This document shows positions 39,716 to 50,125 of a DNA stretch of 64,000 nt, one piece after another. The stretch is from positions 62,001-126,000 of the forward strand of contig NZ_JADWMY010000013.1 in the NCBI RefSeq assembly GCF_015767275.1, read 5' to 3'. The translations under genes were made by a program, and so were the position numbers. The notes beneath the pieces were generated by a model. The model saw only the letters and a program-made list of their open reading frames with translations. It was not told the DNA's origin and made no database searches. How positions within the stretch are numbered: the stretch's first letter is position 1; each line of letters opens with the position of its first letter. This stretch comes from Herbaspirillum sp. AP02. GTDB lineage: Bacteria; Pseudomonadota; Gammaproteobacteria; Burkholderiales; Burkholderiaceae_D.

Positions 39716-39737
39716 AAATATGATGAACATCATATTT
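39716..39737. promoter_or_regulatory. TetR-1 operator, copy 1 (AAATATGATG-AA-CATCATATTT)
   Basis: A perfect 10-2-10 inverted repeat 17 bp before the TetR-1 start. The same core, with two changes near the centre, recurs at 40393-40414 before the SDR gene, so it is probably the autoregulatory operator of TetR-1. Confidence 0.8.
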
Positions 39738-40392: not shown

Positions 40393-40414
40393 GAATATGA
40401 TGATTATCATATTT
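40393..40414. promoter_or_regulatory. TetR-1 operator, copy 2, upstream of the SDR gene
   Basis: The core ATATGATGATTATCATAT differs from copy 1 at two central positions; AATATGAT (40394-40401) and ATCATATT (40406-40413) are inverted repeats. It lies between the TetR-1 terminator and the SDR gene, 100 bp before its start. Confidence 0.75.
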
Positions 40415-41257: not shown

Positions 41258-41325
41258 CGCCTGGAGGCGGAACTTTTGGCGTACAATGATCATCTATTTT
41301 CGAAGTTGATCGACAGGAGCGCGCC

Positions 41326-41943
41326 ATGCGCAAATCCAACGCCGAAACCGCCGAAACCAGGAAGCGCATCCTCGCCATCGCCTCCGGGCTGTTTCTCAAG
41401 AATGGCATCGCCGCCACCGCCATTTCCGACGTCATGTCCGCTGCCGGGCTGACGCAGGGCGGCTTCTATCGTCACTTCACCTCCAAGGAACACCTCGTTG
41501 CCGACGCCAACGCGGTGGCCTTCGACTTCATCGTTGCCAACCTCGACGAGGTCACGCGCGGCATGTCACCCCGCGAGGCGGTGCAGCAGATCGTCTTCTA
41601 CTACCTGCGCCAGCACATGGGCCAGGACCCCCGCATGCTTTGTCCGCTGGCCAATCTGTCCACCGAACTGGGTCACGCCGACCAGCAGGTCAAGGAAGTG
41701 GTCACGGCCGGCTATTCGCGCTTCGTCAAGCTGTTCGCCGCCCACCTGATGCGGCTGGACTACCAGGACTACATCGGCCTGGCCGAATCCATCGTCTCGG
41801 TCATCGTCGGCGCGGTCTCGCTGGCCCGCATGGCCGATGACCAGGCCCTGGTCGATACCATCGTCAGCAACGCCGAAAACACTGTCAAGCTGCTCATGCA
41901 GAGCGCTCCCACCCAGACCGATCTGGTCACCGCCCGCCCATAA
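41326..41943 (+). CDS. TetR/AcrR family regulator (TetR-2)
   Basis: A 205-residue regulator. The HTH region (T-R-K-R-I-L-A-I-A-S-G-L-F through M-S-A-A-G-L-T-Q-G-G-F-Y-R-H-F) is nearly the same as in TetR-3 at 47858-48454, so the two may recognise related DNA. A GATCA-N14-TGATC repeat (41288-41311) lies just upstream and could be its operator. ATG 41326 is preceded by ACAGGAG. It converges on the RND outer-membrane gene across a terminator; its target is not evident. Confidence 0.9.
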   Translation: MRKSNAETAETRKRILAIASGLFLKNGIAATAISDVMSAAGLTQGGFYRHFTSKEHLVADANAVAFDFIVANLDEVTRGMSPREAVQQIVFYYLRQHMGQDPRMLCPLANLSTELGHADQQVKEVVTAGYSRFVKLFAAHLMRLDYQDYIGLAESIVSVIVGAVSLARMADDQALVDTIVSNAENTVKLLMQSAPTQTDLVTARP

Positions 41944-42022: not shown

Positions 42023-43510
42023 TCAGTCCTTGCGGGCCAGCCGCCTGTCGGTGGTGGCGGCGCTGCCACTGCGCTGTTCCTGCCAGCCTCCGCCCAGCGA
42101 CTTGTACAGCGCGATGCGGTTCTGCACTTCGGCCAGGCCGGTACGGATGGTCTGCTGCTGGCTGGCGAACCAGGCACGTTGCGCATCGAGGTAGTCGAGG
42201 TAGCTGGCTTCGCCGCTGTCATAGCGCAGCCTGGCCAGGTCATGGCGCTGCTGTTCAGCACGCTCCTGGGCCTGCACCGCACGCAGCTCGGCGCCCAGCG
42301 TTGCCTGTCCGGCCAGGGCGTCGGCCACTTCGCGGAAGGCCACCTGGATCGTCTTTTCGTACTGGGCCACGGCGATATCGCGGTCGGCCTGGGCCACGCC
42401 GAGATTGGCGCGATTACGGCCACCATCAAAGATCGGCAGGGTGATCGAAGGCAGGAAGCTCCAGGCCCGGCCGCCGGATTCGAACAGGCCATTCAAGGCA
42501 TCACTGGCCGAACCGAAGCTGCCGGTCAGGCTGATGCGCGGGAAGAAGGCCGCCCGGGCCGCGCCGATGTTGGCATTGGCGGCACGCAGCAGGGCTTCCT
42601 GCTGGGCGATGTCGGGGCGCCCCGTGAGCAGGTCCGAAGGCAGACCGGCGGGCAACTCGGCGATGACGCTGCCGTTCCAGTCGGTGTCGGCGGCCGGCAG
42701 CAGGCTAGCCGGGATCGGCTGGCCGATCAGCAGGGCCAGTGCATTCTGGTCCAGGGCGCGCTGGCGTTGGGCTTGCAACAAGGCGATGCGGGCGGCTTCC
42801 AGCAGCGAATCGGACTGGCGCAGGTCGTAGTCGGAGCTGGCGCCCATCTCGCGCAGGCTGACCTGGCGCTGGTGCGAGGCCGTGCGGCTGTCCAGCGTCT
42901 GGCGCGCCAGCGCCAGCAGGCGTTCGTCGGCCACCAAGGCTTCATAGGTGTAGGCCACCTGCGCCACCACGCTGATCTGCGTGGTCTTGCGGGCTTGCTC
43001 GGTGGCGCTGAAGCGTTCCAGTGCCGCGCCGCTCAGGTTGCGCACCCGGCCGAACAGATCCAGCTCGAAGGCGGTTACGCCCAGGCCCACGCTGTAGGCG
43101 GTGGTCAGGCCCCCCTTGCCGGCCGGAGCCACCGTATTCGGGGTTTCCTGGCGGGCGCCGGAGACGCCCAGGTTCAGCGTCGGCAGGCGGTCGGCCGACT
43201 GCACCTGGTAGAGGGAGCGCGCCCGCTCGATGTTCAGGGCGGCCACGCGCAGGTCGCGATTGTGATCCAGGGCCAGGCTGATGAGCTGGCGCAGCGATGG
43301 ATCGCGGAAGAACTGCTGCCAGGGCAGGCTGGCCGCCGACGGCGCCTCGCTGCCGCCGGCGTTGGCATTGGCGTTGGCGCTAGCGGCCAGATCGGCCGGC
43401 CACTGGGTCTGCACCGGCAGGGCCGGGCGTTCATAGGTGGGGGCCAGCGAGCAACCGGCCAGCAGGGTCGCCAGCAGAGACGCGGCGCCCAGGTGTTTGA
43501 TGACGTTCAT
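42023..43510 (-). CDS. RND efflux outer-membrane factor lipoprotein (OprM/NodT family)
   Basis: A 495-residue TolC-like channel. The signal ends L-L-A-G-C with lipidated C20. Two internally similar outer-membrane efflux halves follow, including G-R-P-D-I-A-Q-Q-E in the middle. Its ATG overlaps the stop of the RND pump gene by 4 bases (43507-43510), so it is translationally coupled as the last gene of the operon. An N-A-N-A-N-A-G-G stretch follows the lipid anchor. Confidence 0.93.
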   Translation of the reverse strand: MNVIKHLGAASLLATLLAGCSLAPTYERPALPVQTQWPADLAASANANANAGGSEAPSAASLPWQQFFRDPSLRQLISLALDHNRDLRVAALNIERARSLYQVQSADRLPTLNLGVSGARQETPNTVAPAGKGGLTTAYSVGLGVTAFELDLFGRVRNLSGAALERFSATEQARKTTQISVVAQVAYTYEALVADERLLALARQTLDSRTASHQRQVSLREMGASSDYDLRQSDSLLEAARIALLQAQRQRALDQNALALLIGQPIPASLLPAADTDWNGSVIAELPAGLPSDLLTGRPDIAQQEALLRAANANIGAARAAFFPRISLTGSFGSASDALNGLFESGGRAWSFLPSITLPIFDGGRNRANLGVAQADRDIAVAQYEKTIQVAFREVADALAGQATLGAELRAVQAQERAEQQRHDLARLRYDSGEASYLDYLDAQRAWFASQQQTIRTGLAEVQNRIALYKSLGGGWQEQRSGSAATTDRRLARKD

Positions 43511-46500
43511 GCGAACTCCTTGGAATCGGAATGCTTGACCAGAGGGGCGTTGGCCGAGGGCTTGCGCACCTTGAACCACAGCGAATACAGCGCCGGCAGG
43601 AACAGCAGGGTCAGCAGGGTACCCACGCCGACACCGCCGATGAGCACATAGGCCAGCGGGCCCCAGAAGCTGGAGTGGGTCAGCGGGATGAAGGCCAGCA
43701 TCGCCGCCACTGCGGTCAGGATCACCGGGCGCGCACGGCGCACCGTCGATTCGATCACCGCCTCGTAGGCCGACAGGCCGGCGTCGAGGTCATGGCGGAT
43801 CTGGTCCACCAGGATCAGCGTGTTGCGCATCAGGATGCCGGCCAGGCCGATGAGGCCCAGGATGGCGTTGAAGCCGAACGCCTGATGGAACACCAGCAGC
43901 GTGGGCACGGCACCCACCAGGCCCAGCGGGGCGGTGGCAAACACCATCCACATGGTGGCGAAGGAGCGTACCTGCAGCATGATGACGGTCAACATCAGCA
44001 CGATCATCAGCGGGAACAGCTTGGCCAGTGCCTTGTCGGCCTTGGCGCTCTCTTCCACCGAGCCGCCGGTGTCGATGTGGTAGCCGGGCGGCAGGCTGGC
44101 CTTGAGCTGCTCCAGCTTGGGCAGGATGGCGTGGGTCACATCGGGCGGCTGGGTGCCGTCGCGGATGTCGCCTTGCACGGCGATGTAGGTCTCGCGGTCA
44201 TAGCGCTTGAGGACCGCATCTTCCATCCGCGTTTCCAGGCGTGCCACCTGGGCCAGCGGGACGCTGGCACCGGTGTCGGTGGTCAGCACCAGATTGCGCA
44301 GGTCGGCCAGGTTGTTGCGCTCGGCATGGGGACTGCGGATGAGCACGTCGACGGTGCGCAGGCCTTCCCTGACCTGGGTGGCGGGGATGCCGTTGAGCAT
44401 GGCCTGCAACTGGTTGGCGGCGTCGCGCGGGGACAGGCCCAGCTGGCGCAGACGTTCCTGGTCCAGGCTCAGGTGCACGGTGGGCGTGCGGTTGCCCCAG
44501 TCCATGTGCACATCACGCATGTCGGGATTCTGGATCATCACCACGCGCACCTGCTCGGCGATGTCACGCACCTTGTCCAGGTCCGGACCGGCCACGCGGA
44601 ACAGCACCGGGAAGGGCACCGGCGGGCCGAACACGAACTGGCTCACCCGCACCCGTGCCTGCGGGAAGCGGCCTTCGGCGATCATCTTGCGGATCTTTTC
44701 CTTGAGCACGTCGCGCTCGGCAGGACCGGCGGTGAGCACGATCATCTGCGCAAAGGCCGGGTTGGGCAGCTCGGGATTGACCGAGAGGAAGAAGCGCGGC
44801 GTGCCCTGGCCGATATAGCTGGAGACGATCTCGGCTTCCGGTTCCTGACGCAGATTGGCTTCGATCTGCTTGACCACGGCGTCGGTGGCGGCAAAGGCGC
44901 TGCCTGGCGGGAGGTTGATTTCCAGCGTCAGTTCAGGACGTTCGGAGTTGGGGAAGAACTGCTTCTGCACCGATCCCATGCCCACGCCGGCCAGCAGGAA
45001 CAGGCCCACGGTCACGGCGGCGGTCAGCCATTTGTGATCCACGCACCAGCGCACCAGATTGCGCAGGCGCACGTAGTTGGGCGTGCTGTAGATCTCGTCA
45101 TGGCCACCGGCCTTGACGGCGATGTTGGGCAACATCTTCACGCCCATGTAGGGAATGAACAGCACCGCCACCACCCACGACGTGATGAGCGCGAAGGCCA
45201 CCACCCAGAAGATGTTGCCGGCGTATTCGCCCGCCGTGGAGCGGGCGAAGCCCACCGGCAGGAAGCCGATGATGGTCAGGAGCGTCCCCGAGAGCATGGG
45301 GGCGGCCGTGGCGGTCCAGGCATAGGTGGCCGCCGCCACGCGGTCCAGGCCTTCTTCCATCTTCACCACGATCATCTCGATGGCGATGATGGCATCGTCC
45401 ACCAGCAGGCCCAGCGAGAGGATCAGCGCGCCCAGCGTGATGCGGTCGAACACCCGCCCGGTCATGAGCATGATGACGAACACCGCGCCCAGCGTCAGCG
45501 GCACGGCGGCCGCGACCACCACACCGACGCGCCAGCCCAGGGTCGCCAGGCTCACCGCGATCACCACCGCCAGGGCCATGAAGAACTTGACCATGAATTC
45601 ATTGATGGCGGCCTTGATGGCCTTGGACTGGTCGGCGATCTGCTCCAGGGCGATGCCGGTGGGCAGTTCATCCTGCATCTTGTGCTGGAAGCTGCCGAGG
45701 TCTTCGCCCAGTTGCAGGCCGTTGTAGCCTTTTTTCATGATCACCCCCAGCACCAGCGCGGACTCGCCTTGGGTGCGGATGACGAAGCTGGCCGGGTCTT
45801 CATAGCCGCGGCGGACCTCGGCGATGTCGCCCAGCTTGACGGTCCGATCGGCACCCACGATGGGGATGGCCTTGACCGACTCGACGCTGTCGATGGCGCC
45901 ATCCAGGCGCAACTGCACGCGCGGGCCGGCGGTCTCGACGAAGCCGGCCGAGGTCACGTTGTTCTGCTTGCCCAGTGCATCGATGATGGCCTGGGCCTTG
46001 ATGCCCAGCGTGGCCAGGCGTTGATAGGAGATGTCGACGAAGATGCGTTGCTGCTGCTCGCCCAGGATATTGACCTTCTGCACACCCGGCACATGCAGCA
46101 GGCGCTGGCGCAGGTCTTCGGCCTGCAGGACCAGCTGGCGATGCGGCAGTTTCCTGGCTTCCAGCGAGAAGAGCGAGAAATAGACGTCCGAGTATTCGTC
46201 ATTGATGAAGGGGCCGTAGACCCCATGCGGCAGGTTGGCGGCTTCGTCACCGAGCTTCTTGCGCACCTGGTAGAACTGTTCCTCCACGGTCTTGGCGTCG
46301 GTGTCGTCCTTGAGGTAGAGCTTCATGGTCACCAGCCCGGGGCGGGCAGCGGTTTCCACGCGGTCATAGGCTTCCAGTTCCTGTAGGCGCTTTTCCAGGC
46401 GGTCGCCTACCTGTTGCTGCATTTCCTGGGCGGTGGCGCCGGGCCAGGAGGCGGCGATGGTCATGACCTTCACCACGAAGCTGGGATCTTCGGCGCGGCC

Positions 46501-46605
46501 CAGGCGGAAGAAGGCGAAGATGCCGGCCACGCTGATGGTGATGATCAAAAACAGCGTGATGGCGCGCTGGCGCACGCCGAAGGCGGAGAGGTTGAAGCCG
46601 CTCAT
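43507..46605 (-). CDS. RND efflux pump inner-membrane transporter (AcrB/MexB superfamily)
   Basis: A 1032-residue 12-TM proton antiporter. It begins F-G-V-R-Q-R-A-I-T-L-F-L. The proton-relay Asp pair is in L-G-L-L-V-D-D-A-I-I-A-I-E of TM4. Two large periplasmic loops are present. The sequence is closer to the efflux RND group with short N termini (A-E-D-P-S-F-V-V-K) than to AcrB itself. It overlaps both flanking genes by about 4 bp, forming a tight adaptor-pump-channel operon. Substrates are unknown. Confidence 0.95.
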   Translation of the reverse strand: MSGFNLSAFGVRQRAITLFLIITISVAGIFAFFRLGRAEDPSFVVKVMTIAASWPGATAQEMQQQVGDRLEKRLQELEAYDRVETAARPGLVTMKLYLKDDTDAKTVEEQFYQVRKKLGDEAANLPHGVYGPFINDEYSDVYFSLFSLEARKLPHRQLVLQAEDLRQRLLHVPGVQKVNILGEQQQRIFVDISYQRLATLGIKAQAIIDALGKQNNVTSAGFVETAGPRVQLRLDGAIDSVESVKAIPIVGADRTVKLGDIAEVRRGYEDPASFVIRTQGESALVLGVIMKKGYNGLQLGEDLGSFQHKMQDELPTGIALEQIADQSKAIKAAINEFMVKFFMALAVVIAVSLATLGWRVGVVVAAAVPLTLGAVFVIMLMTGRVFDRITLGALILSLGLLVDDAIIAIEMIVVKMEEGLDRVAAATYAWTATAAPMLSGTLLTIIGFLPVGFARSTAGEYAGNIFWVVAFALITSWVVAVLFIPYMGVKMLPNIAVKAGGHDEIYSTPNYVRLRNLVRWCVDHKWLTAAVTVGLFLLAGVGMGSVQKQFFPNSERPELTLEINLPPGSAFAATDAVVKQIEANLRQEPEAEIVSSYIGQGTPRFFLSVNPELPNPAFAQMIVLTAGPAERDVLKEKIRKMIAEGRFPQARVRVSQFVFGPPVPFPVLFRVAGPDLDKVRDIAEQVRVVMIQNPDMRDVHMDWGNRTPTVHLSLDQERLRQLGLSPRDAANQLQAMLNGIPATQVREGLRTVDVLIRSPHAERNNLADLRNLVLTTDTGASVPLAQVARLETRMEDAVLKRYDRETYIAVQGDIRDGTQPPDVTHAILPKLEQLKASLPPGYHIDTGGSVEESAKADKALAKLFPLMIVLMLTVIMLQVRSFATMWMVFATAPLGLVGAVPTLLVFHQAFGFNAILGLIGLAGILMRNTLILVDQIRHDLDAGLSAYEAVIESTVRRARPVILTAVAAMLAFIPLTHSSFWGPLAYVLIGGVGVGTLLTLLFLPALYSLWFKVRKPSANAPLVKHSDSKEFA

Positions 46606-47699
46606 GATCCGCTCCCCATGCGGGTTTCCGCCAGCAGGGACACCTTCTGGCCGGCCTTGAGCAGGTGTCCGCCCATGGCGACCACGCGCTGGCCGGTGAC
46701 CAGACCGTCGGAGATGCGGGCCTGTTCGGCACCCAGCTGTTCCACCTTCACTGCTTGCAGGCTGACGGTATTGGTCTTGGCATCGATGACCCACACACCG
46801 CTGCCCTTGCCCTGATCGACCAGGGCGCTGATGGGCAGGCTGACGCCCGTGGCGGCCGGGGTGGCGACATGGATGGTAACGGTGGCGCCCAGTGCGGCGT
46901 GGGCGGCGCTGCCGCCCAGGGCGTAGCGCGCCAGGTAGGTGCGGGTCTGCGGGTCGGCCACGGCAGCCAGTTCGCGCAGGGTGGCCGGGGCCTGCTTGTC
47001 CGGATCGCTGAACAGCGAGGCGGTGGCACTGCGCCTTGCCATGCCCAGTTCCTGCTCGGGCAGATAGACCAGGGCTTCGCGGGCGCCATCGCGGGCCAGG
47101 GTCACCACGTTCTGGCCAGCGGCCACCACCTGGCCGACATCGCTGGGCACGGCCAGTACCACGCCATCCATGTCGGCTTTCAGGACGGCGTAGTCACGTT
47201 GATGTTCGGTCTCGCGGGCCTTGGCGGCTTCGGCGCGGGTCTGGGCTACGGCGGCGTCAGCCTCTGCCTTGGCCAGTTCATAGGCCTGGTTGGAGGTGGC
47301 GCCATGTTCCAGCAGCTTGCGCAGCCGCGCTTCCTCGGCCACCGCCTGCACCTGGCGCGCCTGGGCGGCTTCCACGGCGGCACGGGCGGCGGCCAGGGCC
47401 AGTTCATAGTCCTCGGCATCAATGCGCATCAGGGCCTGGCCACGGCGCACGGTCTGGCCCGGGTCCACCAGGCGTTCCACGATCTTGCCGGCGACACGGA
47501 ATCCCAGCTTGCTCTCGGTGCGTGCATGCACCACGCCGGTAAAGCTGACCCGCTCGGTGGTGGCCGGCTGCACGGTGGTCCAGGCCACCTTGGCGACGCT
47601 CTCGGCAGGAGGGGGCGGATGACCGCAGGCGGCCAGGGACAGCAGGAGCGTAGCGCTGAGGAGGGTGCGCCGCGGCAAACGGGAGAGCAGGGTTTTCAT
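46602..47699 (-). CDS. RND efflux periplasmic adaptor lipoprotein (MFP family)
   Basis: A 365-residue adaptor with signal L-S-L-A-A-C (lipidated C25). The lipoyl-like halves are around F-R-V-A-G-K-I-V-E-R-L-V-D-P-G-Q-T-V and G-V-V-L-A-V-P-S-D-V-G-Q-V-V, joined by an Ala-rich helical hairpin (about residues 95-170). It is the first gene of the RND operon. A 46-bp dyad element centred 75 bp upstream of the start probably controls it. Confidence 0.93.
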   Translation of the reverse strand: MKTLLSRLPRRTLLSATLLLSLAACGHPPPPAESVAKVAWTTVQPATTERVSFTGVVHARTESKLGFRVAGKIVERLVDPGQTVRRGQALMRIDAEDYELALAAARAAVEAAQARQVQAVAEEARLRKLLEHGATSNQAYELAKAEADAAVAQTRAEAAKARETEHQRDYAVLKADMDGVVLAVPSDVGQVVAAGQNVVTLARDGAREALVYLPEQELGMARRSATASLFSDPDKQAPATLRELAAVADPQTRTYLARYALGGSAAHAALGATVTIHVATPAATGVSLPISALVDQGKGSGVWVIDAKTNTVSLQAVKVEQLGAEQARISDGLVTGQRVVAMGGHLLKAGQKVSLLAETRMGSGS

Positions 47700-47750: not shown

Positions 47751-47796
47751 TTAGAGTACATATAACCACTAAATATAGATTATCAATGAACTCTAA
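47751..47796. promoter_or_regulatory. 46-bp dyad element, copy 1 (RND operon promoter)
   Basis: The pattern is TTAGAGTAC-N9-CTA-N4-TAG-N9-GAACTCTAA, symmetric about its centre. On the minus strand TTGATA and TATATG are spaced 16 bases inside the element, so a promoter for the RND operon may lie within it. A second copy with the same spacing lies at 48491-48536. The probable ligand is TetR-3. Confidence 0.7.
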
Positions 47797-47857
47797 ATTG
47801 TTCAAGGTTTTTCTTCCGGGCGGGGTCCGGATACCACAATGATGCTGCCCGGAAAGC

Positions 47858-48454
47858 TCAGCCCGCCACCGCGACCGGCGGCAGCATGGCGTGCAGGGTC
47901 TTGCGGCAATTGGCGAGGATGGCCTGCTGGCTGTCGTCGTTGATCGCCACCCGCGCCAGCATCACCGCCCCCACCATGGTGGTGACCACGGCGTCGGCCA
48001 GGCGGGCAGGATCGGGCGCACCGGCCCGGGTCGCCAGCATCTGGAAGAACTGCACCAGCCGTTGATGGCCGGCCATGGCGGCACCCCGCACCAGGCGGTC
48101 GGCGCGGCGCAGTTCGCTGCCCAGGTTGGGCAGGGGACACATGCCGCCGCATTCCGCCCCATCGAGCTGGCTCAGGTACATGTCCACGGCGGTGGCCAGT
48201 GCCTGGCGTGGCGGCAGGCCGGCCAGCGCCTGGCTGAAAAAATCGAACATGCGGTCGTTGGCGGCCAGGTTGGCTTCGGCGATGAGCTGCTCCTTGGACC
48301 GGAAATGCCGGTAGAAGCCGCCCTGGGTCAGGCCGGCCGCGCTCATGATGCTGGCGATGCCGGTCTCGGCCAGGCCGTCGGCGAGGAACATGCGGGTGGC
48401 CGTGGACAGGATGCGCTTGCGCGTATCCAGTGTTTCCTGTTTGGACTTCTTCAT
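47858..48454 (-). CDS. TetR/AcrR family regulator (TetR-3) of the RND locus
   Basis: A 198-residue regulator. The HTH is T-R-K-R-I-L-S-T-A-T-R-M-F through M-S-A-A-G-L-T-Q-G-G-F-Y-R-H-F; the C-terminal half is ligand-binding and contains E-C-G-G-M-C-P-L-P-N-L-G. It lies upstream of the RND operon on the same strand and is divergent from an SDR gene. Copies of a 46-bp dyad lie at both ends of this gene, implying control of itself, the efflux operon and perhaps the SDR. The start M-K-K-S-K-Q-E-T is preceded by AAAGGAGG in the mRNA. Confidence 0.92.
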   Translation of the reverse strand: MKKSKQETLDTRKRILSTATRMFLADGLAETGIASIMSAAGLTQGGFYRHFRSKEQLIAEANLAANDRMFDFFSQALAGLPPRQALATAVDMYLSQLDGAECGGMCPLPNLGSELRRADRLVRGAAMAGHQRLVQFFQMLATRAGAPDPARLADAVVTTMVGAVMLARVAINDDSQQAILANCRKTLHAMLPPVAVAG

Positions 48455-48490
48455 GGCTTGGACCTCCTTTTACAAATCTGCTTGCGCGAT

Positions 48491-48536
48491 TTAGAGTTCT
48501 AATATAATCTATTTTTAGATGTTTACCGAACGCTAA
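48491..48536. promoter_or_regulatory. 46-bp dyad element, copy 2 (TetR-3/SDR divergent region)
   Basis: TTAGAGTTC (48491-48499) and GAACGCTAA (48528-48536) are 28 bases apart, exactly as in copy 1, with CTA-N4-TAG at the centre. Both copies continue with ATTGTT after the right arm. A TATAAT hexamer (48503-48508) inside could be the -10 of the plus-strand SDR promoter. The element is 37 bp upstream of TetR-3. Confidence 0.7.
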
Positions 48537-48659: not shown

Positions 48660-49469
48660 ATGTCCCCCATCAAGGTAGTGGTAGTGACCGGCGTGTCGTC
48701 CGGTATTGGTCGCGCAACGGCGCAACGCTTTGCCGAACGCGGCCACAAGGTGTACGGCACCGTACGCAAGCTGGAGGGGGCCGCCGGCATCACCGGCGTG
48801 ACCCTGCTCGAGATGGACGTGCGCGACGCCGCCTCCATTGAGGCGGCCATGCAGCAGGTGGTACAGCGCGAGCAGGCCATCGACATCCTGGTCAACAACG
48901 CCGGCATGTCGCTGGTGGGGGCGGTGGAAGAGACCTCGGCGGCCGAGGCGCAGGCCCTGTTCGAGGTCAACGTACTGGGCCTGCTGCGTACCAGCCAGGC
49001 AGTGCTGCCACAGATGCGCAAGCAGGGCGCCGGGCGCATCGTCAACCTGAGTTCGGTACTGGGTTTCCTGCCGGCGCCCTACATGGGCTTGTATGCCGCC
49101 TCCAAGCACGCCGTGGAAGGACTGTCGGAAAGCATGGACCATGAGACCCGCCAGTTCGGCGTGCGCGTGCTGCTGATCGAACCGGCCTATACCCGCACCA
49201 GCCTGGATCTGAACGCGCCCAAGGTGCATACCCGCATCCCCGCCTACGACGCCCAGCGGCAGGCCGCGGGGGCGGCGGTGGCGCACCACGTCAACCATGC
49301 ACCCCTGCCCGAGACGGTGGCCCAGACCATCGTGGCGGCCGCCCTCGACCCGAAGTGGCGCATGCGCCACACGCCCAAGGGACAGGCCTCGCTGCTGAGC
49401 AAGCTGCGCCGCTTCATGCCGGCCGGCCCGGTGGATGCGGCCCTCCGCAAGGACCTCAACCTGAAATGA
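48660..49469 (+). CDS. Short-chain dehydrogenase/reductase (RND-locus linked)
   Basis: A 269-residue classical SDR with cofactor motif T-G-V-S-S-G-I-G (about residues 10-17), N-N-A-G, and catalytic Y-A-A-S-K. It has a C-terminal extension compared with the SDR at 40514. It is divergent from TetR-3 with dyad copy 2 between them, so it may convert a compound that the RND pump exports. AGGAG precedes ATG 48660. Confidence 0.9.
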   Translation: MSPIKVVVVTGVSSGIGRATAQRFAERGHKVYGTVRKLEGAAGITGVTLLEMDVRDAASIEAAMQQVVQREQAIDILVNNAGMSLVGAVEETSAAEAQALFEVNVLGLLRTSQAVLPQMRKQGAGRIVNLSSVLGFLPAPYMGLYAASKHAVEGLSESMDHETRQFGVRVLLIEPAYTRTSLDLNAPKVHTRIPAYDAQRQAAGAAVAHHVNHAPLPETVAQTIVAAALDPKWRMRHTPKGQASLLSKLRRFMPAGPVDAALRKDLNLK

Positions 49470-49593
49470 AATGGGCCGACGGATTGGCGATCAGGGGGTA
49501 TGCACCGAACAGGTGGCGTGATCCTGGGCGGCATTTCCGTCGGACATCCCAGGTGCAGCCAGGCGCTTGACTTGGTGCCGCATCGTCCATATG

Positions 49594-49619
49594 ATGCGCA
49601 TACATCGATGCATATGCAT
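49594..49619. promoter_or_regulatory. Two short palindromes upstream of the MarR gene
   Basis: ATGCGCAT (49594-49601) and the perfect 12-bp palindrome ATGCATATGCAT (49608-49619) lie 70-95 bp before the MarR start. They share the ATGC...AT words and could be operator sites for the MarR dimer. Confidence 0.45.
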
Positions 49620-49687
49620 AGTTGTTGCGATCAGACGGCCGGCCATCCCGGTTGTCGGGTCTGTATCTACTGACGACCGGGATGCCC

Positions 49688-50125
49688 ATGAGCAAGGATA
49701 TTTGTACCTGCGCGCCCCTGCGCCGCCTCACGCGCAGGATCACCATCATCTATGACCACCATCTGCAGGACAGCGAACTGAGCATTACCCAGTATTCGCT
49801 GATCAGCTGCATCGGCCGCAAGGGCCCGATCGCCAACATCACGCTGGCGCAGGACATGGGCATGGACCGCAGCACCCTCAGTCGCGCCCTCAAGCCGCTG
49901 ATGGCGGCCGGCTGGGTCGAGACCGTGGACCTGCCGGAGGAAGCCTTGCTGGACAAGCGCTCCTTCGCGCTGCAACTGAGCCGCGCCGGCCAGGCCAAGC
50001 TGGACGAGGCGCGCCCCCGCTGGCGGCGCGCCCAGGACGAGATCGACCGCCGGCTCGGTCCCAAGCTGGCGCGTGAATTCAACGACCTCATCGAAGACGC
50101 CTATGCACGCCTGCAGGAGGCCTGA
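49688..50125 (+). CDS. MarR family transcriptional regulator
   Basis: A 145-residue winged-helix protein. The reading head is in I-A-N-I-T-L-A-Q-D-M-G-M-D-R-S-T-L-S-R-A-L and the wing follows at V-E-T-V-D-L-P-E-E. The N terminus M-S-K-D-I-C-T-C-A-P-L has two Cys that might form a redox or metal switch. ATG 49688 is preferred over ATG 49682. The MFS gene begins 84 bp downstream in the same direction and is the probable target. Confidence 0.88.
   Translation: MSKDICTCAPLRRLTRRITIIYDHHLQDSELSITQYSLISCIGRKGPIANITLAQDMGMDRSTLSRALKPLMAAGWVETVDLPEEALLDKRSFALQLSRAGQAKLDEARPRWRRAQDEIDRRLGPKLAREFNDLIEDAYARLQEA

Follow-up and report, generated by a model that had tools for sequence, protein, structure and literature searches.

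The window analyzed here, a 64,000-nt stretch of the 5.33 Mb genome of Herbaspirillum sp. AP02, carries an RND efflux pump operon in the gene order TetR-2 (+), OEP/RND/MFP (-), element 1, TetR-3 (-), element 2, SDR (+) (Table 1). TetR-3 is a canonical TetR-family protein, with a TetR_N helix-turn-helix domain that scores 48.5 bits against a Pfam cut-off of 24 and the all-helical fold of TetR repressors. Herbaspirillum frisingense GSF30 (L042) has a protein with 99% identity to TetR-3, and the nearest DNA-bound solved structure to the TetR-3 model is the PA2196-DNA complex (4l62), at 21% identity. TetR-2 and TetR-3 are paralogs with a common LTQGGFYRHF stretch in alignment. Elsewhere in the window, we noted by eye two copies of a AATATGATG-NNN-ATCATATTT-like palindrome, one at 39717-39737 upstream of TetR-1, which runs from about 39757, and one at 40394-40414 upstream of another SDR gene (40499); these probably are TetR-1 operators. 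An A/T-rich stretch with CATCGATGCATATGCATAG at 49588-49625, also noted by eye between the SDR gene and a MarR-like gene (49691-50125), possibly is a MarR-type site.

Table 1. Genes, candidate operators and putative promoter elements at the locus (window coordinates).
Feature	Position	Strand	Sequence or remark
Single, weaker 22-mer	41276..41297		TTGGCGTACAATGATCATCTAT; upstream of TetR-2; relatives in L051 and L055
TetR-2	41326..41943	+	TetR-3 paralog, 3' end of pump operon
OEP, outer-membrane factor (NodT type)	42023..43579	-	
RND permease (ACR_tran)	43507..46617	-	coordinates of the stretch searched
MFP, RND periplasmic adaptor	46602..47699	-	
Element 1	47751..47796		TTAGAGTACATATAACCACTAAATATAGATTATCAATGAACTCTAA; tandem 22-bp candidate operators upstream of MFP gene
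Element 1, first 22-mer	47751..47772		TTAGAGTACATATAACCACTAA; inner half-site weaker
Element 1, second 22-mer	47775..47796		ATAGATTATCAATGAACTCTAA
Pump promoter, possible -10	47777..47784	-	GATAAT (15-bp spacer) or TAATCT (17-bp spacer)
Pump promoter, -35-like TTGAAC	47800..47805	-	9 bp outside element 1; consensus position, putative function
TetR-3, TetR-family regulator, 198 aa	47858..48454	-	
SDR-directed promoter-like pair	48482..48508	+	TTGCGC-N15-TATAAT; pump-promoter register, putative function
Element 2	48491..48536		TTAGAGTTCTAATATAATCTATTTTTAGATGTTTACCGAACGCTAA; tandem 22-bp candidate operators between tetR-3 and SDR gene
Element 2, first 22-mer	48491..48512		TTAGAGTTCTAATATAATCTAT
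tetR-3-directed promoter-like pair	48501..48530	-	TTCGGT-N18-TATATT; within element 2, putative function
Element 2, second 22-mer	48515..48536		TTAGATGTTTACCGAACGCTAA
SDR oxidoreductase, divergent from tetR-3	48660..49469	+	

The two 46-bp elements are identical at 30 of 46 positions and lie at the place expected for a TetR-3 operator near its own gene. An earlier note had described them as dyads flanking TetR-3, with outer arms 28 bases apart and an inner CTA-N4-TAG, all symmetric about one center, and every one of these features is present in both copies. The pattern TTAG-N4-C-N28-G-N4-CTAA has two matches in the window and none in each of 100 dinucleotide shuffles. The genome scan for the same spacing that the note had proposed, with TTAGAGTNC-N26..30-GAACNCTAA, returned only these two places in all 5.33 Mb, with none in the reversed control. 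Two similar copies 740 bp apart and with dyad symmetry might suggest a mobile or repeated (MITE-like) element or an RNA hairpin, but we regard this as most improbable: the genome holds no third copy, as a dispersed repeat would, the same architecture with diverged spacers stands before unlike genes in several genera, and the arms hold one consensus with no covariation.

To compare the elements across species, TetR-3 relatives were sought in one genome per species, giving 39 loci, and the unit was scored from convergent half-sites TTAGAkT. Since the loci were found through TetR relatives, many of them close kin, locus counts are not independent. Pairs of convergent half-sites peaked at total lengths of 22 bp (n = 74) and 46 bp (n = 25), with a further five at 48 bp. 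Reversing the sequences left 6 pairs at 22 bp, 2 at 46 bp and fewer than 2 at 48 bp; there, pairs of all lengths together were more numerous (191 versus 165 forward) but spread over every length. The unit is a 22-bp palindrome, TTAGAkT-N8-AmTCTAA, and the 46-mer is two such units with a 2-bp gap, an arrangement seen in 25 pairs of 22-mers, 23 of them distinct in sequence, whose starts lie 24 bp apart, and never in the reversed control. In the 23 distinct 46-mers, all four half-sites follow the one consensus, the inner about as conserved as the outer, and the fourth base is G in 23/23 for each. Because inner and outer half-sites share this consensus at similar conservation, CTA-N4-TAG is the junction of two candidate operators.

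This comparison overturned the parse in the earlier note, in which one 46-bp nested dyad would offer its outer arms to one dimer or factor and its inner arms to another. The common center of symmetry in both copies, which had favored nesting, is a property of any two tandem palindromes, whereas an identical seven-base consensus in inner and outer half-sites speaks against separate binders. Outer arms without both inner half-sites are rare (n = 3, versus 22 with both), and two of those three keep a full 22-mer on one side. Lone units also occur, with 28 22-mers lacking a partner within 60 bp (some partners being merely below threshold), and steps of 26 and 28 bp shift the arms yet leave the 22-mers whole. 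With the relatives compared, we rejected nesting, which now seems highly unlikely. The suggestion that the element is longer than one operator fared better, as the comparison shows that several dimers could find space on one element.

Steps other than 24 bp were fewer. Five 22-mer pairs have a 26-bp step, in Tateyamaria, Roseobacter and Bradyrhizobium, two have a 23-bp step, steps of 28, 29, 31, 36 and 38 bp occur once each and every larger one in one or two pairs. In the reversed control there were three pairs in all, with steps of 30 and 55 bp. The 26-bp-step pairs accompany alphaproteobacterial tetR relatives (L067, L068, L070, L071 and L072). A lack of conserved spacing in relatives had been set as a possible refutation of the original proposal, but the 24-bp step is kept: as expected of tandem operators, two whole palindromes stand at a constant short step that is conserved in relatives. 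In seven of eight Cupriavidus loci (L057, L059, L060, L061, L064, L065 and L069), a single complete 22-mer is preceded at 11 bp by TTGAC-like letters and followed by AAGATGGTTAGCGACCAC, either exactly or altered at one or two bases; the eighth, L062, carries a pair of sites with a step of 23 bp. The Cupriavidus AAGATGGTTAGCGACCAC or close form sits where the second operator would be expected.

We also scanned sets of genomes. The exact core pattern gave 18 matches in 9 distinct genomes, none farther than 6 kb from a TetR-3-like gene (at least 44% identity), with no match reversed; the 10 genomes scanned, of 11 chosen for such loci, count as 9 because all coordinates of G304 equal those of G205. 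In the family scan the bare core pattern was not above its reverse (5 of 294 genomes forward versus 6 reversed), and one of the five forward genomes reflects an unrelated simple repeat. In an order-wide scan of 399 genomes, for which few close relatives were drawn, the module came up in a single genome, that of the window, at two places, with none reversed. Single 22-mers with two mismatches were fewer forward than reversed in the window's genome (74 versus 187), and, among the matches listed, a genome-wide regulon built from single 22-mers (at most two mismatches) fell below the reversed control and was uninformative.

The genes served by the pairs were examined from the pump side as well. 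Of 294 family genomes, 8 contain MFP relatives (E of 1e-90 or better), searched without regard to TetR. The pair lies upstream in all four MFP orthologs, at 71-100% identity, three belonging to the same genus as the window, with the window's own among them, and the fourth from G205, which is the Massilia terrae L050 sequence; no pair was found in the fetched loci of the four MFP paralogs at 55-56% identity. In two loci of 55% pump paralogs, L101 and L103, GTGCATATGCAC palindromes lie directly upstream of the MFP gene in place of the 22-mer pair, and for that reason these pumps may answer to another regulator. Pairs also precede the adaptors of RND pumps only about 21% identical to that of the window (L045 and L047), and in L040 they precede an alpha/beta hydrolase gene and a carbonic-anhydrase-like gene. 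The 24-bp step recurs before non-orthologous genes in Oxalobacteraceae. The divergent gene next to the tetR pair is an SDR in L041, L042, L046 and L053 and a different gene in L038 and L039, and in L100 the SDR gene is itself preceded, at 11 bp, by a pair. In the window, element 2 ends 124 bp from the SDR start, a longer distance than at the other loci seen. Co-control of the pump, tetR-3 and the SDR, as proposed originally, would fit the positions of the elements in this comparison.

For the flanking sequence, we listed 26 composites by hand, leaving aside the two L042 composites (near-identical to the window), the two L050 composites (same DNA as L100), the G004 and G023 copies, the L052 pair with its 23-bp step and the pairs at other steps, and counting the L045 relation once. 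In 25 of the 26, TTG lies exactly 9 bp beyond one end, preceded by C on 24 of 26 such sides, and all remaining offsets between 3 and 37 are shared by fewer than four composites. In the exception, L044, the flank facing away from tetR has no ORF of at least 60 aa that starts in its first 290 bp. Wherever a gene was identified, be it MFP, SDR or another (L144 lying outside this scope), the TTG side faces it, and one L040 composite has TTG on both sides. Given the near-constant TTG, the composite resembles a promoter/operator module. The ATTGTT that the earlier note saw continuing both copies is indeed present, but lies outside the element proper: it falls on the -35-like side of copy 1 and the opposite side of copy 2, and the bases at this place differ in other genera, so we dropped it as a component.

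Promoters were argued from position and consensus, and a consensus sigma-70 scan returned one promoter-like site, none of those argued here. In seven tetR composites, the best joint -35/-10 match falls at positions 7 and 31, a result equaled by 0 of 300 spacer shuffles, and on the opposite strand a -10-like TATAAT occupies positions 29-34 (0 of 500 shuffles). Inside MFP composites alone, a joint -35/-10 was not significant, with 75 of 300 shuffles reaching the same score. From these positions, transcription of tetR-3 appears to start within element 2, in the direction opposite to the SDR gene. Bidirectional bacterial promoters have been reported, and the overlapping opposed -10s of element 2 would fit such an arrangement. 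The step might be promoter spacing only, with 22-mers placed at -35 and -10 and dimers that make no contact, since the -35/-10 candidates of the tetR composites are 24 bp apart and at the same place in each 22-mer. However, pump-type promoters have the 24-bp step though their -35-like TTG is outside the element. As pump and tetR promoters differ in register at an equal step, the step probably is set by the protein, and we disfavor promoter spacing alone as an unlikely explanation.

The regulator that fills the sites could also be, mainly or jointly with TetR-3, the paralog TetR-2, which shares LTQGGFYRHF with it and has a related single site of its own. Two genomes, G205 and G305, have the pump and the pair but regulators only at 46-47% identity, of the TetR-2 clade. 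On the other hand, the pair stands at the promoter of tetR-3 itself and none at tetR-2, and the TetR-2 site is single and starts TTGG, as the one site of TetR-2-type genes mostly does, so that the two regulators may differ in site preference. We consider a main or joint role for TetR-2 possible, though less likely than not. By inference, TetR-2 could be the "second factor" that the earlier note had imagined beside TetR-3.

Known TetR-family systems offer parallels to the tandem operators. According to excerpts of PMC9210681, the Staphylococcus aureus QacR operator IR1 is bound by a pair of homodimers and, like the 22-mer, has TAGA at -10 to -7 from the dyad center, but it is one 28-bp operator with TAGACC, whereas here TAGAkT occurs in 22 bp, twice in tandem. 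The 20-bp DarR operator of mycobacteria and Rhodococcus, TAGATACTCCGGAGTATCTA, has TAGA at an equal offset and binds two interacting dimers (excerpts of PMC10636190), and the 22-bp CprB site of Streptomyces binds a dimer of dimers (excerpts of PMC4150764); both are single sites with core bases unlike those here. Because the TAGA offset agrees with QacR IR1 and the DarR operator, each bound by two dimers as is the CprB 22-bp site, an element could hold two dimers or four, and by this analogy two to four are possible. As proposed here, more than one dimer site covers the promoter region at tetO1/tetO2, 11 bp apart, and at the 55-bp EthR operator, whose direct and inverted repeats bind an octamer (excerpts of PMC9210681). 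Unlike those operators, the palindromes here are 22 bp long with 2 bp between them, repeated at several promoters. In titles and abstract openings, with subscription papers mostly outside the scope, we found no study of the locus or of the tandem site. Multi-dimer TetR-family operators are already known; the fixed tandem module is a further variation on them.

The 22-bp unit, the 24-bp step that is conserved in Oxalobacteraceae, the TTG at 9 bp and the linkage to TetR and pump genes are read directly from the DNA. From them we predict, as the likely reading, that tandem 22-bp TetR-family operators lie over promoters and repress the pump, tetR-3 and the SDR. Element 1 would overlap the promoter of the MFP-RND-OEP operon and element 2 two opposed promoters, for the SDR gene (+) and tetR-3 (-). 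Dimers of TetR-3, perhaps of TetR-2 too, would fill both 22-mers of each element, cover the promoters and block RNA polymerase, keeping all three units off until a ligand frees the dimers and expression comes on. We infer which protein binds, that it represses, what ligand it answers to, where transcription starts and how many dimers a 22-mer takes. A bolder extension, which we hold to be possible but doubtful, is that the TTG-9 bp-22-mer-2 bp-22-mer array holds up to four TetR dimers, that the two paralogous repressors flanking the pump operon both read it and, through two different ligands or through mixed arrays, tune expression of the pump, the repressor and the SDR, and that the 24-bp step arises from neighboring dimers touching one another at about a quarter turn of the helix.

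The tandem operators would amount to a basically ordinary, well-preserved on/off switch that serves the pump together with its repressor and a neighboring enzyme, not a new type of regulation. They also provide a compact, testable case of tandem-operator use by TetR-family repressors, in which the 24-bp step is kept across genera and across dissimilar promoters, and the single-site and 26-bp-step relatives are natural variants. The arrangement predicts which genes would respond together with the pump, and it raises the possibility that one operator may be under the shared control of two neighboring paralogs.
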